DNA from: a virus
Virus record (IMG/VR): IMGVR_UViG_3300049460_000376
Coordinates: 1 to 55,475 of that record
Reading direction: 5' to 3' (one strand)
Length of the DNA: 55,475 bases
Every line of letters begins with the position of its first letter. Positions within the stretch are counted from its first letter, which is position 1. This document shows, piece after piece, positions 2,431 through 55,212 of this stretch. The notes under the pieces are model-generated. The model was not told the DNA's origin, searched no databases, and worked only from the letters and a program-made list of their open reading frames with translations. A program made the translations under genes and the position numbers.

Positions 2431-2937
2431 TCACTGCTGCAGATTCTTCACATACGCCTGGCAAGCCTGCAGCGCGATCAGTCCACGGTCGCCGGTGTCG
2501 GTGATGGCGATAATTCGTTGAGCATGCGCTGGGTCAAGTCGGGCGCGTACGGCTGCATGATCCACGCTGCCGGCGCCGGTGGTGGTTGGCACACAGCAGC
2601 CTTTGGCAGCGTCGGTTGCATCGAGGAGGACTGACAGCCGCAAATCAGAAGTAGCAAGGCGATCGCGCAGGCGATCTTGATCACGTTGGGCATCACTCAT
2701 TTTCCTGAAGTGGGTTTGCTCGCTGGCCGACAGCCGCTGCTCGAGCGCCAGCCGCTTATCCTGCTCGGCCTGTTGCGCGGTGGCAGCGGCTTGGGTCAGT
2801 TGATTGAAGTCTTCGGCGTGTATCCGTGCCTGCTCAGCCAATTGCTTCCCGTAACGCCAGTCCTGAAACTGCCAGGCGCCGCCGAAGCCGGCGAACAACA
2901 GCACCAGCACTCCGATCAACCGCCAAGGCACGACCAT
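2431..2937 (-). CDS. Rz-like i-spanin
   Basis: 168 residues from an ATG overlapping the endolysin stop (ATGA). The N-terminus has one signal-anchor segment (about residues 6-22, LIGVLVLLFAGFGGAWQF), followed by a long charged coiled-coil region rich in Q, A, E and R. This is the layout of the inner-membrane spanin that joins an outer-membrane partner to disrupt the outer membrane at lysis. A lipoprotein frame (2478-2693) is embedded out of frame, as Rz1 is in Rz of lambda. Confidence 0.85.
   Translation of the reverse strand: MVVPWRLIGVLVLLFAGFGGAWQFQDWRYGKQLAEQARIHAEDFNQLTQAAATAQQAEQDKRLALEQRLSASEQTHFRKMSDAQRDQDRLRDRLATSDLRLSVLLDATDAAKGCCVPTTTGAGSVDHAAVRARLDPAHAQRIIAITDTGDRGLIALQACQAYVKNLQQ
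2478..2693 (-). CDS. Rz1-like o-spanin lipoprotein, embedded in Rz
   Basis: 71 residues, wholly inside the i-spanin gene in another frame. There is a hydrophobic signal (IACAIALLLLICGC) with the lipobox cysteine near residue 20, then a proline-rich mature part (QPPPAPAA, SPSPTP) typical of Rz1. AGGAAAATGAGTG precedes the ATG at 2693. The lipidated partner would sit in the outer membrane and bind the coiled coil of the i-spanin. Confidence 0.85.
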   Translation of the reverse strand: MPNVIKIACAIALLLLICGCQSSSMQPTLPKAAVCQPPPAPAAWIMQPYAPDLTQRMLNELSPSPTPATVD

Positions 2938-3362
2938 CACGGCACATCCTTGAAGAAAACGTGCCCGCCCAGCCTCAGCGTCTGCTTGGCTTTCGCCGAC
3001 CATGCTGGGGCCGTCTTCATGGCAATCGCGTAGTAGTGCGTCGCTCCACCAGTAGGATCAGGCACATTGCCATCGATTACCTGGTCAGCCGCGATACGAC
3101 ACTGCGCCAGCTCGCGGAACGGGATTTGCTTCACGCCGATCAGGAACTGATAGTTCGGGTCGGTCTTGTTCCAGCAGCTGAACTGGTAGGGTTTCTGGCA
3201 CACACCTGCATACCCCTCCCCCCACCACGACTTTTCCTTCCCATCAAACACGCGGTTGCGGATCGTCCAAGCGACGGCGATCTGGCCGGCCGTGCCCTCA
3301 CCGCGCGCCTCACCCCAGATGGTGCGGGCGAGGATGTCGCGCTCTCTTTCAGTGACGGTCAT
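2937..3362 (-). CDS. Endolysin, SleB-type cell wall hydrolase
   Basis: 141 residues. The N-terminal part ARTIWGEARGEG with Glu18, the YQFSCW segment and the later GGATHYYA block match the Hydrolase_2 (SleB) lytic transglycosylase/amidase family used as endolysin by many Pseudomonas phages. No signal peptide, so it needs the holin (28869-29201), which here is located 25 kb away rather than in the lysis cassette. Stop and Rz start overlap. Confidence 0.88.
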   Translation of the reverse strand: MTVTERERDILARTIWGEARGEGTAGQIAVAWTIRNRVFDGKEKSWWGEGYAGVCQKPYQFSCWNKTDPNYQFLIGVKQIPFRELAQCRIAADQVIDGNVPDPTGGATHYYAIAMKTAPAWSAKAKQTLRLGGHVFFKDVP

Positions 3363-27380: not shown

Positions 27381-28004
27381 TCAGGCCGACTTGAGCAGAC
27401 AGGTTCCGCAGGCCCTCGAAATGTTCATTTTCCCCACCTCAGCAGGATTGTTTGCAGCGTCCACCAGCTCTTGAACTTGAGGGCTCGCCCCATACCGACG
27501 CACCACACCGACGAACTCTTCAACGTCGTGTCCGCGCATCTCAAGCTTGGGCAGTCCTTCCTGGGTGAATGCTGGCTGGCCATACTTATCGGTCGCTTGA
27601 GCTATGTGATACAGCTCATGTTCGATGAGGGCGCAGAAATCAGCGTCGGAGCAATCCGCGCAGTAATCGGCAGCCAGAGTGATGATGTAGGCCGGCACAT
27701 CGCCGAACCAATCGCACATCTGCTGTTCCATCCGGGCCTTCTGCCAGCCACCAGCGCGGAACGCCACCTGTTCAGCCTGTCCCACCACCGTACGCCCCTT
27801 CTTCGTGAAGGCAGCAGACGCCCACATCACACGAATGTCCGCATCGATCAGATGGGCGTGTTCTTCGTTGTGGATGCTGCCGGTGTCAGCAAGGATCTCG
27901 GCTTGGAGCCATTCCCACACTTCTGGAGCGGGTGTCAGGCGAATGCCGAAGTCGGAAAGGTCGGACAGCTCAAGCAGTGACGCCGGGGGGAGTGGTCTTT
28001 GCAT
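27381..28004 (-). CDS. Putative phage metallopeptidase
   Basis: 207 residues from MQRPLPPASLLELSD, GGAAGGGCTG upstream. A zinc-protease HExxH motif is present as H129-E-L-Y-H133, after CADCSDADFCALI. The family is known from many phages as putative metallopeptidase beside terminase, role unsolved. Starts 35 nt inside the HslV-like gene, so probably co-translated. Confidence 0.85.
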   Translation of the reverse strand: MQRPLPPASLLELSDLSDFGIRLTPAPEVWEWLQAEILADTGSIHNEEHAHLIDADIRVMWASAAFTKKGRTVVGQAEQVAFRAGGWQKARMEQQMCDWFGDVPAYIITLAADYCADCSDADFCALIEHELYHIAQATDKYGQPAFTQEGLPKLEMRGHDVEEFVGVVRRYGASPQVQELVDAANNPAEVGKMNISRACGTCLLKSA

Positions 28005-28443
28005 CAGCCCTTCCCTCGTCAATGATCAGTGTGCGGATCGTGCCGCCGGTGTAAACATCACGCTTCGCCGCCGCCTCGACAGCCTCCTTGGCTGTTGCGC
28101 CCATATCCATGGCAGCGAGTGCGAAGTCGCGCCCACTACCGATGGCAAACGAACGCTCCATCCATACCTCGTCCAGCCAGAATCCACTCTCGGCGTCACG
28201 ACCGATCTGGCAAAGCCTGCCATTGGTGACTACCAGCCCGTTCGCGTCGAGCGGCTTATCGCTGGTCTTCACGCCGAAAAACTCATCCATCAGGGCGGCA
28301 AAGTCCGCCCCGCAACCCGTGAACAGGAACTGATGGCCATTCCTATGGATGAGCTTTTCGTAGTCATCGTGGTCGATGAGAGAACCGCGAGTGACGCGAG
28401 AGTCATAGGCGATAACGCCGTCTTTGTAGGCAATGGTCGTCAT
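27970..28443 (-). CDS. HslV/proteasome-like Ntn hydrolase
   Basis: 157 residues from MTTIAYKDGVIAYDSRVT. Methionine removal would expose Thr2, the nucleophile used by HslV and proteasome beta subunits, and the following pattern (xTTIxxxDGxIAxDSRxT) fits that fold. The later SGRDFALAAMDMGATAKEAV block matches the family's second helix pair. It is translated together with a metallopeptidase. Whether it is an active protease is unknown. Confidence 0.82.
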   Translation of the reverse strand: MTTIAYKDGVIAYDSRVTRGSLIDHDDYEKLIHRNGHQFLFTGCGADFAALMDEFFGVKTSDKPLDANGLVVTNGRLCQIGRDAESGFWLDEVWMERSFAIGSGRDFALAAMDMGATAKEAVEAAAKRDVYTGGTIRTLIIDEGRADAKTTPPGVTA

Positions 28444-28868: not shown

Positions 28869-29201
28869 TTACTCGGCCTTGCGGGTCGGTAACTTGAAGT
28901 CAGTCACCCGATCCGCGATGTTCCGGATCTTCTCCACGCCCAGGAAGCCAACCCAGCCGCCGGCGAAAGTAGCCATGCTCTGGGGCAGGCCGAAGAAGTC
29001 CAGGCCGCTGATGATGGTCAGTGTCAGGCCGCCGCAGATGGCGCCTTCCACCAGCATCTGGCGACGAGTGCCGCCACCGTAGGTGATCCGCAATACAGCC
29101 ATGGCGCAGGACAGCGCAGCCGCATAGAGGATTGGCGAATGCTGGCTCAACCACGCAAGCGCTATCGCCCATGTGTCTGGTTTGTCTGGCATGTTTGGCA
29201 T
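28869..29201 (-). CDS. Holin (lambda S-type family)
   Basis: 110 residues, GGGGAGGAACCGAG before the ATG. Three likely membrane segments (about 22-40, 52-68, 72-90: LYAAALSCAMAVLRITYGG, MLVEGAICGGLTLTIISGL, ATFAGGWVGFLGVEKI) and a basic tail, as in Phage_holin_3 proteins. It forms the lesion that frees the endolysin. It is far from the endolysin/spanin group, at the start of the late region. Confidence 0.88.
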   Translation of the reverse strand: MPNMPDKPDTWAIALAWLSQHSPILYAAALSCAMAVLRITYGGGTRRQMLVEGAICGGLTLTIISGLDFFGLPQSMATFAGGWVGFLGVEKIRNIADRVTDFKLPTRKAE

Positions 29202-30655: not shown

Positions 30656-30730
30656 TGGCTGGCATGGGAGGGTTCGAACCTCCGACCGGGCGGTTAACAG
30701 CCGCCTGCTCTACCGCTGAGCTACACGCCA
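30656..30730 (-). tRNA. tRNA-Asn (GTT)
   Basis: 75 nt with encoded CCA. Acceptor TGGCGTG pairs with CATGCCA (one G-U), discriminator G. Anticodon loop CTGTTAA gives anticodon GTT. D and T arms have the usual AGCTCAG and GTTCGAA. Lies 3 bp from the second tRNA, forming a phage tRNA pair. Confidence 0.92.
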
Positions 30731-30733
30731 ATT

Positions 30734-30809
30734 TGGTGCCGTCACGAGGATTCGAACCCCGGGCCATTCGCTTACAAGGCGACTGCTCTACCGCTGGAGC
30801 TATGACGGC
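30734..30809 (-). tRNA. tRNA-Thr (TGT)
   Basis: 76 nt with encoded CCA. Acceptor GCCGTCA pairs with TGACGGC, discriminator A. Anticodon loop CTTGTAA gives TGT. The top base pair of the anticodon stem is mismatched, leaving four good pairs. T loop GTTCGAATC normal. Confidence 0.88.
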
Positions 30810-35672: not shown

Positions 35673-36524
35673 TCAGGCCTTCCCGACCAGTTTGGCCAAT
35701 TCAGGGAAACGATCCACGTACCAGTGAGGCTGGGTTTCGCGGGGGCATTGCGGGCTGGTGAGGTTCTTGCCGTAGGTCAGCCCCTTGTCAGTCACTGACC
35801 AGAAGTCGACCATCTCTTGTTTGGAGTTTTTGCGCTGAAGGACTTTGAGGAAGCCGTGAGCTTCCAGTGCAATGTTGAAAGTGCGTGCGGTACTGGCGAT
35901 GCAGTGATCTTTGATCAGCGCGGTTATGGCCTTGGTCGGCATCGAACTGCCGACAGTGGCATCCGGCGCAGCATCCACGGCGTAACCCGGAAGGAAACTC
36001 GACTCCAGACCGTTATTGGTGGCGATCCTCGCCAGCATCATCATCTGGCTGGACGGCGACGGCTTCAGCAAGCGCGTGTAGCACTCCATGAGTGCCAGTT
36101 CACCTACAACTTTTGAACTGCTCGGGCTGGCAGCTTCGAACTTTCCGGTTTTGCGAATGCTGGGCAGCACCTCACCCACTACCCATTCTTCGAAGCGTTC
36201 GGCGCCAACCAGCTTCGAGCGCATCACCAGTCGGTAGACATCGCGCTCAGGAATGACGGTCATGAAACCACCACCCTGTTTCGGGGTAGTGGTCGCGGCC
36301 TTGCAGTGACGGGAGATCGCGTTCTCTGGCTTGGCATAACCGAGCGCATCGGCAACATCACGGGCGACGAACCACGGGTCGCCGAGTTCGTCGGTTATGA
36401 CGCGGATGGTGCCACCATCGAAGTCGAAAGGAATTACTGAGGTGGTACGCGACACGTTTTGCGATTTGTTAAAACGTGTCGCGACATTGTTCGGGGTATT
36501 GCTGGAATTTGGCTGGCTCTGCAT
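35673..36524 (-). CDS. BRO-family antirepressor
   Basis: 283 residues. Residues 32-130 form a Bro-N domain (IPFDFDGGTIRVITDELGDPWFVARDVADALGY, then RHCKAA and PERDVYRLVMRS). The C-terminal half is a distinct domain with ATNNGLESSFLPG and an HTH-like stretch KAITALIKDHCIAST. Antirepressors of this group counter CI in many phages. The N-terminal codons hold a perfect inverted repeat (36448-36483), giving the odd NNVATRFNKSQNVSRTT sequence. Confidence 0.85.
   Translation of the reverse strand: MQSQPNSSNTPNNVATRFNKSQNVSRTTSVIPFDFDGGTIRVITDELGDPWFVARDVADALGYAKPENAISRHCKAATTTPKQGGGFMTVIPERDVYRLVMRSKLVGAERFEEWVVGEVLPSIRKTGKFEAASPSSSKVVGELALMECYTRLLKPSPSSQMMMLARIATNNGLESSFLPGYAVDAAPDATVGSSMPTKAITALIKDHCIASTARTFNIALEAHGFLKVLQRKNSKQEMVDFWSVTDKGLTYGKNLTSPQCPRETQPHWYVDRFPELAKLVGKA
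36448..36483. repeat. Perfect 13-bp inverted repeat in antirepressor gene
   Basis: CGCGACACGTTTT (36448-36460) and AAAACGTGTCGCG (36471-36483) separated by 10 bp. Same half-site as the repeats at 28829-28868 and 46000-46038. It is inside codons 15-27 of the antirepressor. Confidence 0.85.
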
Positions 36525-36588: not shown

Positions 36589-37011
36589 TCAGGCGGCCTT
36601 TACCGAGGCATCCATCACGTCCAAGCTCTGCCGAACGTGGTTGATTTCCTGACGGATCAGTTTTTTTTCGAATGCGCTGACGTGGTTGTCATCCAGTGCT
36701 TGGTGCACCGCGATGGTCAGATCGGCGACCTCTTTGCCGACGTTGATCAATGATTTGGTCAGCGCTTGTGGTTCCGGTGCAGCTTTCGCTACGAGGTCAA
36801 AACCGAACTCGTTCGCCAGTGTTGCCAGAGGTCGCATGTCGCCTGTGTGCAACAGAACTCCGAACAAATGCTCCACGGTCAGGTGGTGTGCGTCGTTGTC
36901 CGGATTGGCGCGCTGAAGCAGGCCAACGTGAGGAACGCCCATCTTTGCAGCAAGAGTCTTGGCTTCGTTGTCCAGGACAGCGCTCTGGCAGGCCCGCAGA
37001 AAATCTTCCAT
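36589..37011 (-). CDS. CII-type phage regulatory protein (CP76 family)
   Basis: 140 residues from MEDFLRACQSAVLDNEAKTLAAKMGV. GAGGTTTTACGA precedes the ATG; an extension to 37065 lacks a site. HTH-like AKTLAAKMGVPHVGLLQRANPD, the HLTVEHLFGVLLHTGDMRPL block and a helical tail match the phage regulatory CII/CP76 family. It is the second gene after cro, the position of cII. Confidence 0.82.
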   Translation of the reverse strand: MEDFLRACQSAVLDNEAKTLAAKMGVPHVGLLQRANPDNDAHHLTVEHLFGVLLHTGDMRPLATLANEFGFDLVAKAAPEPQALTKSLINVGKEVADLTIAVHQALDDNHVSAFEKKLIRQEINHVRQSLDVMDASVKAA

Positions 37012-37092
37012 TCGTAAAACCTCAAATTTGTTTCCGTGGCGCCCTGCCAGTGCGTGGGCGATCATTTGTTCCGGCAGTCAGCAACGAACATT

Positions 37093-37296
37093 TCATGCTG
37101 CTGTGCGTTTGGGTCGCGCAGGGATCGGGCGAATCTCGTTCGCCTCAATGCGCCCATCGTCATAAAGGGTGATTTCAATGCTTCTGCCGGCTCGAACCAT
37201 TTGCGAGATCGCGCTCTGGTTCACGCCGAGAGCAGCAGCAAGCGCGGCTTGGGTGCCGTGCTCTTCTAGGTATTTGCTCAAAGGGATCTTTTTCAT
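37093..37296 (-). CDS. cro: Cro repressor
   Basis: 67 residues: MKKIPLSKYLEEHGTQAALAAALGVNQSAISQMVRAGRSIEI. The helix-turn-helix is at about residues 16-36. Length and layout match Cro (PF09048). Divergent from cI with the operators between; GTGGAAATTCC before the ATG. It starts the early-right transcript. Confidence 0.92.
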   Translation of the reverse strand: MKKIPLSKYLEEHGTQAALAAALGVNQSAISQMVRAGRSIEITLYDDGRIEANEIRPIPARPKRTAA

Positions 37297-37326: not shown

Positions 37327-37399
37327 ATAGTAGCAGCGCTGCTTTTTATCAGCAACAAAATACTAGCAGTGCTATTTGCTTGAGTATCAGCTCTGCTAA
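37327..37399. promoter_or_regulatory. Right operator region and cro promoter
   Basis: A minus-strand promoter TTGCTG (37350-37355), 17-bp spacer, TACTAT (37327-37332) fires cro. Three operator-like 14-mers of form TAKCAG-NN-CTGCTA are at 37331-37344 (inside the promoter spacer), 37364-37377 and 37385-37399. The cI promoter must lie at the right end, near 37376-37405 (TTGCTT, 18 bp, TACTCT). Confidence 0.85.
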
Positions 37400-37412: not shown

Positions 37413-38201
37413 ATGAAAATACGCCGCCCCCTAACCCCCGAAGAAGTCGCCGAGAGCGCCAGGCTCAAGGCCATCTACGAACAGCGGAAATCAGCTGCAA
37501 AAGCTGCCGGGCGCAGCCTGACGCAGGCGGATGTTGCCGAGGCGTGCGGATGGTCTGGGCAAAGTGCATTCAGCCAATACGCCACCGGGAAGGTGCCGCT
37601 AAATGTGGAAGCGCTGCTGAAGCTCGCAAAGGCGCTCAACTTCGATGCAAGCGAAGTTAGCTCCCGACTGTTATCCACTGTTGCCAGCGTGCAGCAAGAG
37701 CGCATTCAGCCAAGCGTAAAATTAGGAAATATCGAGACTTGGGATGACGAAACCCCGCTCGATGACGATGAGGTTTATGTCCCCTTCCTTCATGAAGTGG
37801 AGCTAGCGGCCGGATCAGGCAGGTTTGCGATTGAGGAAAGCGCCAACTCACGACTGCGCTTCAACAAGAAGGACCTGCGCCACAATGGCGTTCAGTTCAG
37901 CAACGCGAAGTGCGTAAAGGTTGGCGGTAACAGCATGGTGCCCGTGCTGCGCGACGGCGCCACGGTCGGCGTGAACGTGGGGAAAAACTCCCTGAGCGAT
38001 ATCGTCGATGGTGAGATGTACGCCATAAACCACAACGGCCAGCTCCGCGTGAAACAGGTATACCGCATCCCGATCGGCATTCGCCTGCGTAGCTTCAACC
38101 GGGACGAGCACCCGGATGAGGACTACACATTCCAGCAGATCCAGGAGCAGCAAATTTCAATCTTGGGGCATGTGTTCTGGTGGGCAATGTACTCCCGCTG
38201 A
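37413..38201 (+). CDS. cI: CI-type repressor with S24 peptidase domain
   Basis: 262 residues from MKIRRPLTPEEVAESARLK; an in-frame extension to 37311 would enter the operators. HTH at about residues 34-60 (TQADVAEACGWSGQSAFSQYATG). The C-terminal S24/LexA-like domain has Ser174 (GGNSM) and Lys214 (RVKQVYR), with a possible Ala-Gly cleavage bond at about 133-134 (ELAAGSG). RecA-triggered cleavage would link induction to the same damage that derepresses the LexA box at 548. Confidence 0.92.
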   Translation: MKIRRPLTPEEVAESARLKAIYEQRKSAAKAAGRSLTQADVAEACGWSGQSAFSQYATGKVPLNVEALLKLAKALNFDASEVSSRLLSTVASVQQERIQPSVKLGNIETWDDETPLDDDEVYVPFLHEVELAAGSGRFAIEESANSRLRFNKKDLRHNGVQFSNAKCVKVGGNSMVPVLRDGATVGVNVGKNSLSDIVDGEMYAINHNGQLRVKQVYRIPIGIRLRSFNRDEHPDEDYTFQQIQEQQISILGHVFWWAMYSR

Positions 38202-38234: not shown

Positions 38235-38552
38235 ATGACGGATAACAATTCGACGCAAGTGACGGAAGGCGCCCCTGATAACTCAGCAAAAGAAATCCTA
38301 AATGTGCCAATTCAAGTGATCGTTGATTACCTAAATGGTATCAACGAGCATGCTAAATGCACATTTTGTAACATAGGTGATTACGGAGTATTGCCGGCCC
38401 CAACTGGCGGCACTGCAGCGGTTGTCGCAGCTCCAGTCCCCAACGTGCAGCACGTCGGCGTGTGGTTTTATCTTGCAACATGCGTGAATTGCGGCAACAC
38501 GATAATGCTTAATGCCAGGCACGTTTTGGCAAAACTGAAGAGCGAAAGCTAA
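38235..38552 (+). CDS. CI-linked protein with split zinc-binding cysteines
   Basis: 105 residues, AAGGGAG upstream of the ATG. Two CxxC pairs (CTFC near residue 42, CVNCG near residue 82) probably form a zinc ribbon. It starts 34 bp after cI in the same direction, so it is likely to be expressed in the lysogen. Coupled to the next gene by TAATG. No family recognised. Confidence 0.75.
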   Translation: MTDNNSTQVTEGAPDNSAKEILNVPIQVIVDYLNGINEHAKCTFCNIGDYGVLPAPTGGTAAVVAAPVPNVQHVGVWFYLATCVNCGNTIMLNARHVLAKLKSES

Positions 38553-39097
38553 TGGCGGCTGCGCTCCTTGCGTCTGACGTCTATGATTTCATGGAGGATC
38601 AATATTCGACCGTTGCAAGCGTTCAGATCATCTATGAAAAGTATTTCTTCATGACTGATAACCTTGACACCTCTCTGGCTGCCGAACCGTCATTACCTCA
38701 GCTGGGGGTGTATACTGCCGATACTGACGAAGGATCACTTAACCTCATGAGCGCATTTCGGAAAGACTTATTTGTGTCTGTCACTTTGCCTATACTGGGG
38801 CTTGGAGCTCTCGTATTAGGTACTGTTGGCGCGTCTTTCGCCTACACATGGGGCTCCTATACTCGTCTTGATGACGCTATCGGCCCACTCGAAACTGCTA
38901 CTGCTTCACTTGCTACCAGCTCGAACCAGATCCAAGCGACGCTGAACGAGCTGAAGGTGTTGCAAAAGGAAGCCGTTTCGAATCGAGAAGCCGACCGTCA
39001 GCAATCTAGAGTCGATTATGAGCAGCTAAATGCTCTGCTTCAGGAGTTGAAGCAGGGACAGGCTGCCGCCAACGAAGTACTCAAACGAGTTAAGTGA
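38552..39097 (+). CDS. CI-linked membrane and coiled-coil protein
   Basis: 181 residues. Soluble N-terminal part of about 65 residues, one or two closely spaced membrane segments (about 72-100, LFVSVTLPILGLGALVLGTVGASFAYTW), then a long helix/coiled coil to the C-terminus (DDAIGPLETATASLATSSNQIQATL onward). Closed by a strong terminator at 39115-39139. It forms a lysogenic two-gene cassette with the zinc protein. Confidence 0.75.
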   Translation: MAAALLASDVYDFMEDQYSTVASVQIIYEKYFFMTDNLDTSLAAEPSLPQLGVYTADTDEGSLNLMSAFRKDLFVSVTLPILGLGALVLGTVGASFAYTWGSYTRLDDAIGPLETATASLATSSNQIQATLNELKVLQKEAVSNREADRQQSRVDYEQLNALLQELKQGQAAANEVLKRVK

Positions 39098-39114: not shown

Positions 39115-39139
39115 GCCCGGCCTGAGAGCCGGGCTTTTT
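39115..39139 (+). terminator. Terminator of the cI transcript
   Basis: GCCCGGC-CTGAGA-GCCGGGC-TTTTT on the plus strand, 17 bp after the membrane protein stop. Confidence 0.88.
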
Positions 39140-39383: not shown

Positions 39384-39535
39384 CTTTAGGATTGTGCGTC
39401 GGTATAGGCCGAACCGTATCCAGCGCTCGGTGGTGCCGACTGGCGGCGTATCAGATGGTGGCTCTGCACCACGAATGGTAAAATACGCGTCTCCCTCAAT
39501 GGATCAGGTTTTACGATATGGATAGTGGAAGTCCT

Positions 39536-40099
39536 ATGGCTGGCTTTCTATTTCTGGTGGTCGGCTTCGTCATCTACTTCCTGCCCACATTTGTTGCCTC
39601 CAGTCGGAAGCACCTCAACGGAACGTCAATTTTCCTGGTAAATCTCTTCCTTGGATGGACGTTTCTCGGATGGGTCATCGCACTGGTCTGGGCTTCATCC
39701 GCGAACACAGAAGGACCGGCAAGTAATTTGGCGTCCGGAGTTGGCGCGTCCGCCGAACGGCCCTGCCCTTTCTGCGCTGAAACGATCAAAAGCGCAGCTA
39801 TCAAGTGCAAGCACTGCGGCGCTGATGTTGAAGCCATTCAAGCGCCGCGACTCAAGAACGGGTGGGTCGCATCTGTTCCGTGCAAGGCCGGCGCAGAACA
39901 GGTGAACACCATCGAGGCGATAAAAGCGCTAGGTCTACCAGTTGTTCCAATGATTGGTGCAGCAGTCGGCGCCGGCCCTTTTGAAACGAAAGATGAAGCC
40001 AAGCAAGCCTTGGCGCTCCTGCGGAATGAGCCAAGACTCTTCAGCGAAATCATGTACAGGGATTCCGTAAGCGGGAAATATCCACCAATTCTCGATTGA
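39536..40099 (+). CDS. Superinfection immunity protein with zinc ribbon
   Basis: 187 residues from MAGFLFLVVGFVIYFLP, with GGAAG 5 bp upstream; an ATG at 39518 is an alternative. Two membrane segments (about residues 2-17 and 31-53) with YFLPTFVASSRKH between fit the phage superinfection immunity family (T4 Imm type). A zinc ribbon CPFCAETIKSAAIKCKHCG follows at about residues 76-95, then a C-terminal domain of SPOR-like size (ETKDEAKQALALL). It would block DNA entry of related phages from the inner membrane. Confidence 0.85.
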   Translation: MAGFLFLVVGFVIYFLPTFVASSRKHLNGTSIFLVNLFLGWTFLGWVIALVWASSANTEGPASNLASGVGASAERPCPFCAETIKSAAIKCKHCGADVEAIQAPRLKNGWVASVPCKAGAEQVNTIEAIKALGLPVVPMIGAAVGAGPFETKDEAKQALALLRNEPRLFSEIMYRDSVSGKYPPILD

Positions 40100-40113: not shown

Positions 40114-40138
40114 AAGCCCGCCAAGCGCGGGCTTTTTT
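40114..40138 (+). terminator. Intrinsic terminator after immunity gene
   Basis: AAGCCCGC-CAAGC-GCGGGCTT with a six-T tail on the plus strand. Confidence 0.88.
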
Positions 40139-40158: not shown

Positions 40159-40198
40159 TAGCAGCGCTATTTACTTTAAATAGCAGCGCTGCTACTTT
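40159..40198 (+). promoter_or_regulatory. Left operator region and early-left promoter
   Basis: Two copies of the same 14-mer operator found at cI/cro: TAGCAG-CG-CTATTT (40159-40172) and the perfect TAGCAG-CG-CTGCTA (40181-40194), centres 22 bp apart. A promoter TTTACT-N17-TACTTT (40170-40175, 40193-40198) has the second operator in its spacer, just as at cro. Confidence 0.85.
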
Positions 40199-47828: not shown

Positions 47829-48602
47829 ATGTCCGCCCAACGACCACGAATCGTTTGCCAGTTCAGTTGCGGCGCCGCCTCGGCGGTTGCCACAAAGCTC
47901 GCACTGGCGCAGCACGGCGCAACAAACGACGTGCAGATCATCAATGCGTTTCTGGCCAACGAGCACGAAGACAACCGCCGCTTCCTGCTGGACTGTCAGG
48001 AATGGTTCGGGCAAGAGATCGTGCAGCTGCGCGACGAGAAGTACAGTGCGGACATCATTCAGGTATTTCGGCGCGAGCGATTTATGAAAGGCCGCAATGG
48101 CGCTCCCTGCACCAAGCTACTGAAGCGCCGCCTTCTCGATGCTTGGAAACAACCGGGCGACGTGATGGTGTTCGGCTACACCGCTGAAGAGGTCGACCGC
48201 TTGGAAGACTTCCGCGACCGAAACCCTGACCGCCCCGTTATCGCGCCACTGATCGATGCAGGACTGGGTAAAGACGACTGCAAAGCAATGATTCTAAGGG
48301 CAGGAATTGAGCTGCCCTTTATGTACCGCAAGGGTTACGACAACGCAAATTGCATCGCTTGCGTGAAAGGCGGCGAAGGATATTTCCGGGCGATCCGCGA
48401 AGACTTTCCCGAGCAGTTCGAGGAATTGTGCAAAGTTCAGGACGAGCTTGGCCCAGGCAGCTACCTGCACCGAAATCGCAAAACGGGGGAGCGATATTCA
48501 CTCCGTGATTTGGGTGATGGCCCTGTGCGCCGCAACGAGAAACTGCCTGCTTGTTCGTTCTTCTGCGAGATGGCGGAAGCCGACATCGTTGCCATCGCTT
48601 GA
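47829..48602 (+). CDS. PAPS reductase-like protein
   Basis: 257 residues. PP-loop-like FSCGAASAV at residues 12-20, APCTKLLKRR with Cys94, NCIACVKGG with Cys175/Cys178, and ACSFFC with Cys242/Cys246. These fit the phage branch of the phosphoadenosine phosphosulfate reductase family. The four late cysteines could hold an Fe-S cluster or zinc. Possible roles are nucleic acid thiolation or sulfur metabolism; none is proved. TGAGGATCCCCT before the ATG. Confidence 0.85.
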   Translation: MSAQRPRIVCQFSCGAASAVATKLALAQHGATNDVQIINAFLANEHEDNRRFLLDCQEWFGQEIVQLRDEKYSADIIQVFRRERFMKGRNGAPCTKLLKRRLLDAWKQPGDVMVFGYTAEEVDRLEDFRDRNPDRPVIAPLIDAGLGKDDCKAMILRAGIELPFMYRKGYDNANCIACVKGGEGYFRAIREDFPEQFEELCKVQDELGPGSYLHRNRKTGERYSLRDLGDGPVRRNEKLPACSFFCEMAEADIVAIA

Positions 48603-53620: not shown

Positions 53621-54007
53621 ATGGGCGCACAAAAATTGCAGCCACGCTTTATCCGGGCCGGCGAGGCGCCTGCCTACTTGAGCATGAATTTGCCGTTGTT
53701 TAACGAAATCGTCAGGCCGTTCGTGAGCGAGTTCCCGATCGGGGAGCGCGGGGTCGGCTTCGATCGTCAGGAACTTGATGCGTGGGCATCGTCCTACGTG
53801 GCAGCCAAGGCAATTGATAAAAAGGGCGCGAGGGAGCAACAATTGCCCCGCAGCGAGCGCCAGAAAGGAGAAACACAATGGCGCGAAAAACGATCACAGG
53901 CCTCTCCCAAAGGAAAGGTCTCTGGCATATCGACAAGAAGATCAACGGCGAAAGACTTTACGAATCTACTGGAACAAGTGACCGGCAAGAAGCAGAGCGC
54001 TACCTGA
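53621..54007 (+). CDS. xis: Probable excisionase, overlapping integrase
   Basis: 128 residues. MGAQKLQPRFIRAGEAPAYLSMNLPLFNEIVRPFV has the winged-helix/AlpA-like opening of phage excisionases; the middle is FDRQELDAWASSYVAA. GGGGAAAAGGATGCTGT before the ATG. It overlaps the integrase start by 130 nt, so the basic C-terminal end (KKGAREQQLPRSERQK onward) is read over the integrase codons. Only the first 80 residues are surely functional. Confidence 0.75.
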   Translation: MGAQKLQPRFIRAGEAPAYLSMNLPLFNEIVRPFVSEFPIGERGVGFDRQELDAWASSYVAAKAIDKKGAREQQLPRSERQKGETQWREKRSQASPKGKVSGISTRRSTAKDFTNLLEQVTGKKQSAT

Positions 54008-55056
54008 TACATCGACTGGAGCAGATCCGGCAGGAGAAGGTCTACGGCGTTCGGCAGGTCAGAACGTGGCGGGATGCGGCGATGCGTTTTTTGGTCGAAT
54101 TCAAGGATCAGCCTTCGATCAAGCTTTCGGCTCACCACCTTTCACAGCTGGACGAATTCATCGGCGACATGCCGCTGACCCATATTGATGACCAGGCCCT
54201 AGGGCCTTTCATTAAGGACAGGTTGGCGACCAAAACGCTGCCGGATGGCAAGGTGAAGAAAGGCGTGAGCAACAGAACGGTGAATATCTCGATCGAGCGT
54301 GTGGTTCGGGTTTTGTCGTTGTGTGCCAGGAAGTGGCGAGACGATGAGCGACGGCCGTGGCTGGATAGCGTGCCAATGCTCACGAAGCTGGAAGAGAAGA
54401 AATCGAGTCGCAAGCCCTATCCTATGTCGTGGGAGGAGCAATCGATTCTTTTCGGGGAGTTGCCGGCTCACCTGCAGACGATGGCGCTGTTCAAGGTAAA
54501 CACTGGCTGTCGAGAGCAGGAAGTTTGCAAGTTGAGGTGGGATTGGGAGATTTCGGTGCCGGAGCTCGGTACCAGTGTGTTCCTGATCCCGGCTGACTTT
54601 GGCGGCAGACACGAACGGTCTGGCGTGAAAAATGGCGACGAGCGCCTGGTGGTGCTGAACAGCGTAGCCAAGTCGATCATTGATCAGCAGCGTGGGCTGA
54701 GCAAGGAATGGGTTTTTCCTTACAACGGCAACGCAATGCACCGAATGAACGACTCGGCTTGGAAGAAGGCGCGAGTGAGAGCGGCGAAACTCTGGCAGGA
54801 GGAAAACCTTCGCCCCGCTCACCCTGGCTATCTGTCGATCAGGATTCACGATTTGAAGCACACGTTTGGCCGTCGCCTTCGAGCGGCGGGCGTAACCGAG
54901 GAAGACCGAAAGGCCCTTCTGGGGCACAAGAACGGCAGCATCACCAGTCACTACTCGGGCGCTGAGCTCGGGCATCTGATTGAAGCTGCAAATATGGTAT
55001 CAGCAACCGATTCGCGTGGGCCGGTGCTGACAATTTTGAAGAGGAAGCAGGCGTGA
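53878..55056 (+). CDS. int: Tyrosine integrase
   Basis: 392 residues, AAAGGAGAAACACA before the ATG. Arm-binding N-terminus (GLSQRKGLWHIDKKINGERLYESTG), core-binding middle, catalytic domain with Arg212 (TGCREQEV), His324/Lys327 (HDLKHTF, Lys in place of the usual Arg), His350 (LLGHK) and nucleophile Tyr359 (SHYSG). It acts on the adjoining tRNA-Pro attachment site. Gene next to attR as in most such prophages. Confidence 0.95.
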   Translation: MARKTITGLSQRKGLWHIDKKINGERLYESTGTSDRQEAERYLIHRLEQIRQEKVYGVRQVRTWRDAAMRFLVEFKDQPSIKLSAHHLSQLDEFIGDMPLTHIDDQALGPFIKDRLATKTLPDGKVKKGVSNRTVNISIERVVRVLSLCARKWRDDERRPWLDSVPMLTKLEEKKSSRKPYPMSWEEQSILFGELPAHLQTMALFKVNTGCREQEVCKLRWDWEISVPELGTSVFLIPADFGGRHERSGVKNGDERLVVLNSVAKSIIDQQRGLSKEWVFPYNGNAMHRMNDSAWKKARVRAAKLWQEENLRPAHPGYLSIRIHDLKHTFGRRLRAAGVTEEDRKALLGHKNGSITSHYSGAELGHLIEAANMVSATDSRGPVLTILKRKQA

Positions 55057-55066
55057 GAAATGGAGA

Positions 55067-55085
55067 AGTCACGCAAATGTCACGC
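55067..55085. promoter_or_regulatory. Integrase arm-type sites, right
   Basis: AGTCACGC at 55067-55074 and TGTCACGC at 55078-55085, 11 bp apart, matching the triple at 431-459 on the other side of the core. Directly after the integrase stop. Confidence 0.7.
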
Positions 55086-55094
55086 GCATGAAAA

Positions 55095-55119
55095 AGGCCA
55101 ATGCTGTGAACATTGGCCT
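55095..55119 (-). terminator. Phage-supplied terminator for tRNA-Pro
   Basis: AGGCCAATG-CTGTGAA-CATTGGCCT, a 9-bp perfect stem, with T5 on the minus strand. It lies 17 bp past the tRNA 3' end on the prophage side and replaces the host terminator at 252-278. It may also end integrase transcripts. Confidence 0.8.
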
Positions 55120-55135
55120 AAGTCATTGAATTATT

Positions 55136-55182
55136 TGGTCGGGACGGAGTGATTCGAACACTCGACCCCTAGCACCCCATGC
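55136..55182. repeat. attR core (47-bp direct repeat)
   Basis: Identical to 303-349. Contains the 3' part of tRNA-Pro, whose 5' part continues to 55212 in host DNA, so integration left the tRNA intact here. Confidence 0.95.
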
Positions 55183-55212
55183 TAGTGCGCTACCGGACTG
55201 CGCTACGCCCCG
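55136..55212 (-). tRNA. tRNA-Pro (GGG), host, integration target
   Basis: 77 nt with encoded CCA. Acceptor CGGGGCG pairs with CGTCCCG (one G-U), discriminator A. Anticodon stem CTAGC/GCTAG with loop ATGGGGT gives anticodon GGG. Downstream (in reading direction) of the MerR-type gene, the arrangement I recall from Pseudomonas chromosomes near ihfA. Confidence 0.95.

Follow-up and report, generated by a model that had tools for sequence, protein, structure and literature searches.

A repressor-linked zinc-type and membrane-protein gene pair in the rexAB-like slot of a Pseudomonas prophage, a candidate phage-exclusion module

The rexAB genes of phage lambda constitute the first abortive-infection system. 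They are two lysogeny-region genes between cI and OL on the cI strand, with the gene for the soluble component first and that for the membrane component second. RexA, of 31 kDa, binds DNA non-specifically, and four transmembrane (TM) helices are predicted in RexB (PMC11077077). A system described from Pseudomonas, RexABpp (PP_5643-5644), belongs to prophage P1 of P. putida, where it lies downstream of CI. It excludes phages, for which the membrane protein is required as well as the soluble one (loss of either gene makes the cells phage-sensitive), and its activation harms the membrane (PMC12894663). RexABpp thus shows that the neighbourhood of cI can encode exclusion (PMC12894663).

We analysed a virus record of 55,475 bases (the window), which is a Pseudomonas prophage. 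Its genes for a J-like tail protein, tape measure, major head protein, portal, terminase and holin are those of a lambda-like siphophage, and it also carries integrase and RecE/RecT-like genes. The features of the immunity block, together with other genes of the window, are given in Table 1. The start of cI, an ATG, was picked by inspection. Several genes outside the block call for comment. The PHROG name of the gene at 27381 looks wrong, since the protein matches a 'transposase' family yet contains HELYH in surroundings characteristic of zinc metallopeptidases. Two tRNA genes lie side by side within the phage genome, and a tRNA-Pro (ggg) gene follows close behind the integrase, making the end of the record a likely attachment site.

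Table 1. Coordinates of features in the window
Feature	Coordinates	Strand	Remarks
phrog_19595 gene, 248 aa	567-1313	+	phrog_19595 almost full length (4.9e-95)
phrog_513 gene	27381-28022	-	'transposase', 8e-97
Holin	28869-29201		
tRNA-Asn and tRNA-Thr	30656-30809	-	
Antirepressor	35673-36524	-	first gene of the immunity block, left to right
CII-like	36589-37065	-	
Cro	37093-37296	-	
OR-like operator cluster	37331..37398		cro-cI gap; three sites with the core (37331+, 37364+, 37389-)
cI-type repressor	37413-38201	+	Peptidase_S24 1.3e-18, HTH_31 2.5e-7, phrog_4 1.8e-45
g1, 105 aa, CxxC...CxxC	38235-38552	+	zinc-ribbon-type; constant component
g2, 181 aa, one TM segment and long helix	38552-39097	+	start overlaps the g1 stop codon
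Intrinsic terminator of the cI-g1-g2 unit	39115-39134	+	7 all-GC pairs, T5 tail, fold z = -2.0
Small reverse gene, 76 aa	39153-39383	-	separates g2 from the Imm-like gene; phrog_19595, first ~65 positions (1.8e-4)
Imm_superinfect/zinc-ribbon (Imm-like) gene	39518-40099	+	second membrane/zinc gene of the immunity interval; PF14373 3.5e-17; phrog_1039 'immunity to superinfection' 2.2e-24
Terminator after the Imm-like gene	40114-40134	+	
OL-like operator pair	40159..40194		core identical to OR; PWM scores 23-25; far end of the immunity region
Phosphoadenosine phosphosulfate reductase-like gene	47829-48602	+	phrog_424, 1.2e-47; metabolic cargo gene
Integrase, then tRNA-Pro (ggg)	53878-55212		

Operators on both sides of g1 and g2 are the strongest new evidence that the pair holds a rexAB-like position. 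The exact core TAGCAGNGCT occurs six times in the 55,475 bases, against 0.42 expected, and all six copies lie either in the cro-cI gap or in the second cluster, past g2. A position matrix built from five sites scores at least 20.8 at the operator sites and at best 13.6 elsewhere in the window. The core was taken from the sites of the cro-cI gap and the matrix from the operator sites themselves, so the independent evidence is the recurrence of the exact core at one other place, 40159-40194. Because the same core stands on both sides, cI, g1, g2 and the Imm-like gene sit between OR-like and OL-like operators; the rightward early genes begin beyond the second cluster. The original prediction had proposed a rexAB-like layout relative to cI, and this slot between OR-cI and OL bears it out. 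The placement is in fact firmer than the original prediction knew, since relatives with unrelated operator sequences place the pair likewise: operators that differ in sequence from those of the window and score above shuffles surround the module in L005 (OR 3053-3105, OL 5092/5117), L007 (OR 3212-3261, OL 4971/4994), L008 (OR 1962-2014, OL 4194/4217) and L011 (OR 3070/3092, OL 5283/5307), where L numbers denote loci with g1 homologs. The OR/OL signal is weak in L001 and L002.

A location inside the OR-OL interval would also suit a modulator of the lysis/lysogeny decision, or a lysogenic conversion of host physiology without action on other phages, as proposed for RexA alone; for RexA, a bias on the lambda switch that does not depend on RexB is reported (PMC11077077). 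Such a modulator needs no membrane partner, yet a partner is a recurrent feature of the g1 loci, and we regard this explanation as quite unlikely.

The same interval contains further genes. The Imm-like gene is a second exclusion candidate between OR and OL, combining Imm_superinfect, a zinc ribbon and a C-terminal region; its C-terminal part resembles, by eye, that of the product of L001 6099-6623 (GWVA...LGLPVV). The small reverse gene and the gene at 567 are two related copies at distant sites of one phage.

The gene structure agrees with what had been claimed for it: two coupled genes right behind cI and closed by a terminator, one with two CxxC pairs and the other with a membrane anchor and a long coiled coil. 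The g1 gene begins 33 nt past cI and overlaps g2 by 1 nt (TRATG), and a 7-bp GC stem with a T5 tail begins 18 nt past g2. The cysteines of g1 form C42-x2-C45 and C83-x2-C86, whereas the sole hydrophobic segment of g2, residues 73-93, precedes a predicted long C-terminal helix or coiled coil (residues 106-180; 75 residues). The 33-nt gap between cI and g1 contains no terminator-like site, and the gene layout suggests that g1 and g2 are co-transcribed with cI. A search near cI revealed no consensus sigma-70 promoter, for which reason we only infer a PRM for cI-g1-g2.

The TRATG overlap is identical in 9/9 close homologous pairs, and dN/dS is 0.06-0.13 between close relatives in which dS is unsaturated, indicating purifying selection; g1 and g2 are therefore real genes. 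We discarded an ATG farther downstream, at 38652, as the start of g2 because the homologs align from residue 1 and retain the overlap. An adjacent downstream ORF with a TM segment (called at a Kyte-Doolittle peak of at least 1.6) is found at 31 of 38 g1 loci, as against 22/167 (13%) in a matched control, although the control ORFs are mechanical and the loci are mutually related, so that the binomial value of 2e-21 overstates their independence. In L013, L024 and L026 the downstream ORF peaks just under 1.6. No adjacent partner is present in L078 or L085, and none bearing a TM segment in L068. In the Yersinia phage vB_YenM_30.14 (L004, 5324-6006), the two genes coupled to the zinc gene both lack a TM segment and may represent another type of effector.

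Comparison of 12 close pairs revealed two types of g2. The first, with one TM segment and a coiled coil, is found in the window, L002, L007, L008, L010, L011 and L013. The second, a 2-TM-like module with a third membrane gene behind it in every case, is found in L001, L005, L016, L024 and L025. The N-terminal ~55 residues of g2 (YDFM...D..E..VYT) are common to both types, with poor conservation in L016, L024 and L025. L005 combines features of the two: its g1 is 59% identical to that of the window, the closest found, whereas its g2 membrane module is 37-45% identical to those of L001, L016 and L025 and 28-30% identical to that of the window, and it carries the third membrane gene of L001, L016 and L025 as well. 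We read this combination of a window-like g1 with a membrane module of the other type as module exchange. The constant part of the system is thus g1 plus the first ~55 residues of g2, and the membrane part changes. At the more remote Pseudomonas loci, most partners are coiled coils that bear a TM segment at the C-terminus. In L023, a third short protein with coiled coil and TM segment (2894-3106; 70 aa) lies behind the zinc/coiled-coil pair.

Only C42, C45, C83, C86 and G87 are invariant among 15 diverse g1 proteins, and this cysteine pattern suggests that g1 binds zinc. The window g1 matches PHROG 4293 (E 3.8e-4) in its C-terminal part only, and all four remote g1 homologs scanned (L004, L015, L019 and L021) match the same family, with E-values of 6e-7 to 8e-4 across the g1 proteins. 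By profile matching, then, g1 is a remote member of PHROG 4293, a family label without a function. The label also comes without the membrane partner, the modularity and the immunity-region setting seen here.

An AlphaFold2 model of g1 (mean pLDDT 65.8, modest) contains helices, a strand region round both CxxC motifs and a C-terminal helix. Fold searches with this model gave no significant match (Foldseek best E 0.18 against PDB and 0.073 against BFVD; VIA-align best Z 3.8). RexA was not among the fold matches listed for this model of modest confidence, so that its absence excludes nothing. The top Foldseek match, at the insignificant E of 0.18, is the antitoxin MqsA, which like g1 is a small protein with a zinc-binding domain; the gene order of MqsA differs, and no DNA-binding domain is recognised in g1. 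This match bears on the possibility that the pair is a toxin-antitoxin or addiction system, with g1 as a zinc antitoxin (an MqsA-like ribbon) that restrains a membrane toxin, g2, and so stabilises the prophage. Antitoxin-first gene order, translational coupling and the occurrence of the pair away from detected repressors (L079, L082 and L083) would all agree with such a system, but it is quite unlikely in our estimation: the MqsA match is not significant, g1 offers no recognised domain for autoregulation, and the position in the immunity region would require a separate explanation.

The sequence tests run related neither protein to RexAB. Among solved structures, a profile of 15 g1 proteins hit no chain of RexA at E<=10, and Pfam and PHROG scans of the pair returned no Rex family. 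The pair is accordingly not homologous to RexAB by any sequence test run, and the earlier statement, which saw no likeness in sequence between the pair and rexAB, is right as far as these tests (profile, Pfam and PHROG) reach. The components differ in kind too. The window pair consists of a CxxC/CxxC protein with about a third of the mass of RexA and a coiled-coil protein with a single TM segment, compared with four in RexB. With RexABpp the pair shares a Pseudomonas prophage, a position behind a CI-type repressor and a soluble plus a membrane component, but RexABpp, as described in the accessible portion of its report, comprises a RexA-like DNA clamp and a four-TM protein and is separated from the repressor by two genes; that portion describes no zinc motif (PMC12894663). 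Among PADLOC-DB 2.0.0 HMMs, none matched g1, and the best g2 match (E 0.057) is unconvincing and falls in the coiled-coil region; a known-defence label for g2 was rejected, the similarity being to the coiled coil only. No paper on PHROG 4293, nor any on a zinc-plus-membrane exclusion pair, turned up in a search of open-licence PMC literature.

The structure model of g2 is poor (mean pLDDT 56), with most of the last helix at 62-86. The first ~60 residues have no confident structure and contain conserved YDFM, D39, E45 and VYT. Viral contigs scanned with g2 yielded no relative, and the aligned g2 proteins diverged too far to allow a pattern search. Weak matches to phrog_739, an Rz-like spanin (E 0.0026), and to the NCBIfam LysB model (E 0.015, far below cut-off) raise the idea that g2 is a displaced spanin with a part in lysis. 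The similarity is that of a generic TM segment and coiled coil. In addition, g2 has an N-terminal extension of ~60 residues and is translationally coupled to a zinc-type protein; it lies behind cI, between cI and the OL-like site, rather than among the late genes, and the holin lies elsewhere; and its relatives replace the coiled coil by 2-TM modules. We rejected the spanin label, given similarity confined to the coiled coil and a location outside the lysis cassette, and consider a lysis role highly improbable.

In most coil-type g2 proteins the stretch ahead of the TM segment is slightly more basic than the one behind it, a weak topology signal that fits a periplasmic coil (N-in, C-out). Such a coil could stop DNA at the inner membrane much as SieA or T4 Imm do, an entry-blocking superinfection exclusion in which g1 would serve as a non-sensing chaperone or regulator of g2, and an Imm_superinfect protein is encoded within the same immunity interval. 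The coil of the tail-anchored partners (L021 and L023) is ahead of the TM segment, however, which would place it on the opposite side of the membrane, and an entry block leaves unexplained why the zinc-type protein is strictly kept with diverse membrane partners. We hold this explanation to be unlikely.

Homologs of g1 are present in Pseudomonas phage Aurca01 (where the gene is unannotated), in IMG/VR contigs and in P. lactucae; none was found in plasmids. The PHROG 4293 profile itself gave one match over 398 genomes of the phylum, and an alignment-built profile of 15 g1 members was therefore used in its place. It found g1 in 25/399 Pseudomonas genomes, possibly an undercount because a dozen candidates were scored per genome. 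More distantly, g1 has relatives in Yersinia phage vB_YenM_30.14 and Escherichia phage PHB10, in both directly behind a repressor or regulator gene; the PHB10 version had no near DNA match among the E. coli genome collection. In answer to the question whether the same pair stands beside other repressors, an S24-repressor motif was detected just upstream in about half of the 38 g1 loci by a crude automatic test that overlooks some repressors (e.g. L002, L004, L015, L021 and L023), and several pairs lie away from any detected repressor (L071, L075, L077, L079, L082 and L083). In L079, L082 and L083 the pair is of the zinc and coiled-coil/TM kind, L079 lying downstream of a purC-like gene; with no upstream repressor detected, standalone chromosomal versions may exist.

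A repressor-linked zinc-type protein with a coupled, exchanged membrane part is best fitted by sensor-effector exclusion. We give roughly even chances to the pair being a lysogen-expressed two-component phage-exclusion module, RexAB-like in action and unrelated to RexAB by the sequence tests run; the analogy in action is drawn from position, gene order and component types. In such a module, the maintenance promoter would transcribe g1 and g2 together with cI, and g1 would fold round a zinc ion and remain cytoplasmic, bind the N-terminal ~55-residue segment of g2 (a probable docking site), and sense a product of an incoming phage, whether DNA, RNA polymerase or another protein. Infection would release or reorganise the g1/g2 complex, g2 would oligomerise via its coiled coil, and the membrane would be compromised or growth halted before the second phage is produced. 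No g1-g2 homolog with a tested function was found. Patchy carriage (25/399 Pseudomonas genomes), the L004 partners without a TM segment, the exceptions L078, L085 and L068, and the pairs away from a detected repressor count against an exclusion module, as do the poor g2 model and the lack of a convincing PADLOC match.

The pair probably represents an uncharacterised family of phage-exclusion systems in many otherwise different prophages. A more specific proposal, which we advance tentatively and rate at somewhat short of even, is an undescribed modular prophage immune family in the rexAB slot, made up of a zinc-ribbon sensor (PHROG 4293-like), an N-terminal docking segment and interchangeable membrane effectors (single-TM coiled coils, tail-anchored coiled coils or multi-gene 2-TM sets), spread across Pseudomonas, with distant relatives in phages of Yersinia and Escherichia. 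If the exclusion reading is true, Pseudomonas prophages would use the slot of lambda rexAB for a second two-component exclusion family as well, one that is modular and unrelated to the first, and a function would be given to PHROG 4293 and to the unannotated Aurca01 gene. A constant zinc protein with exchangeable membrane parts would let one ask whether the sensor or the effector decides phage specificity.
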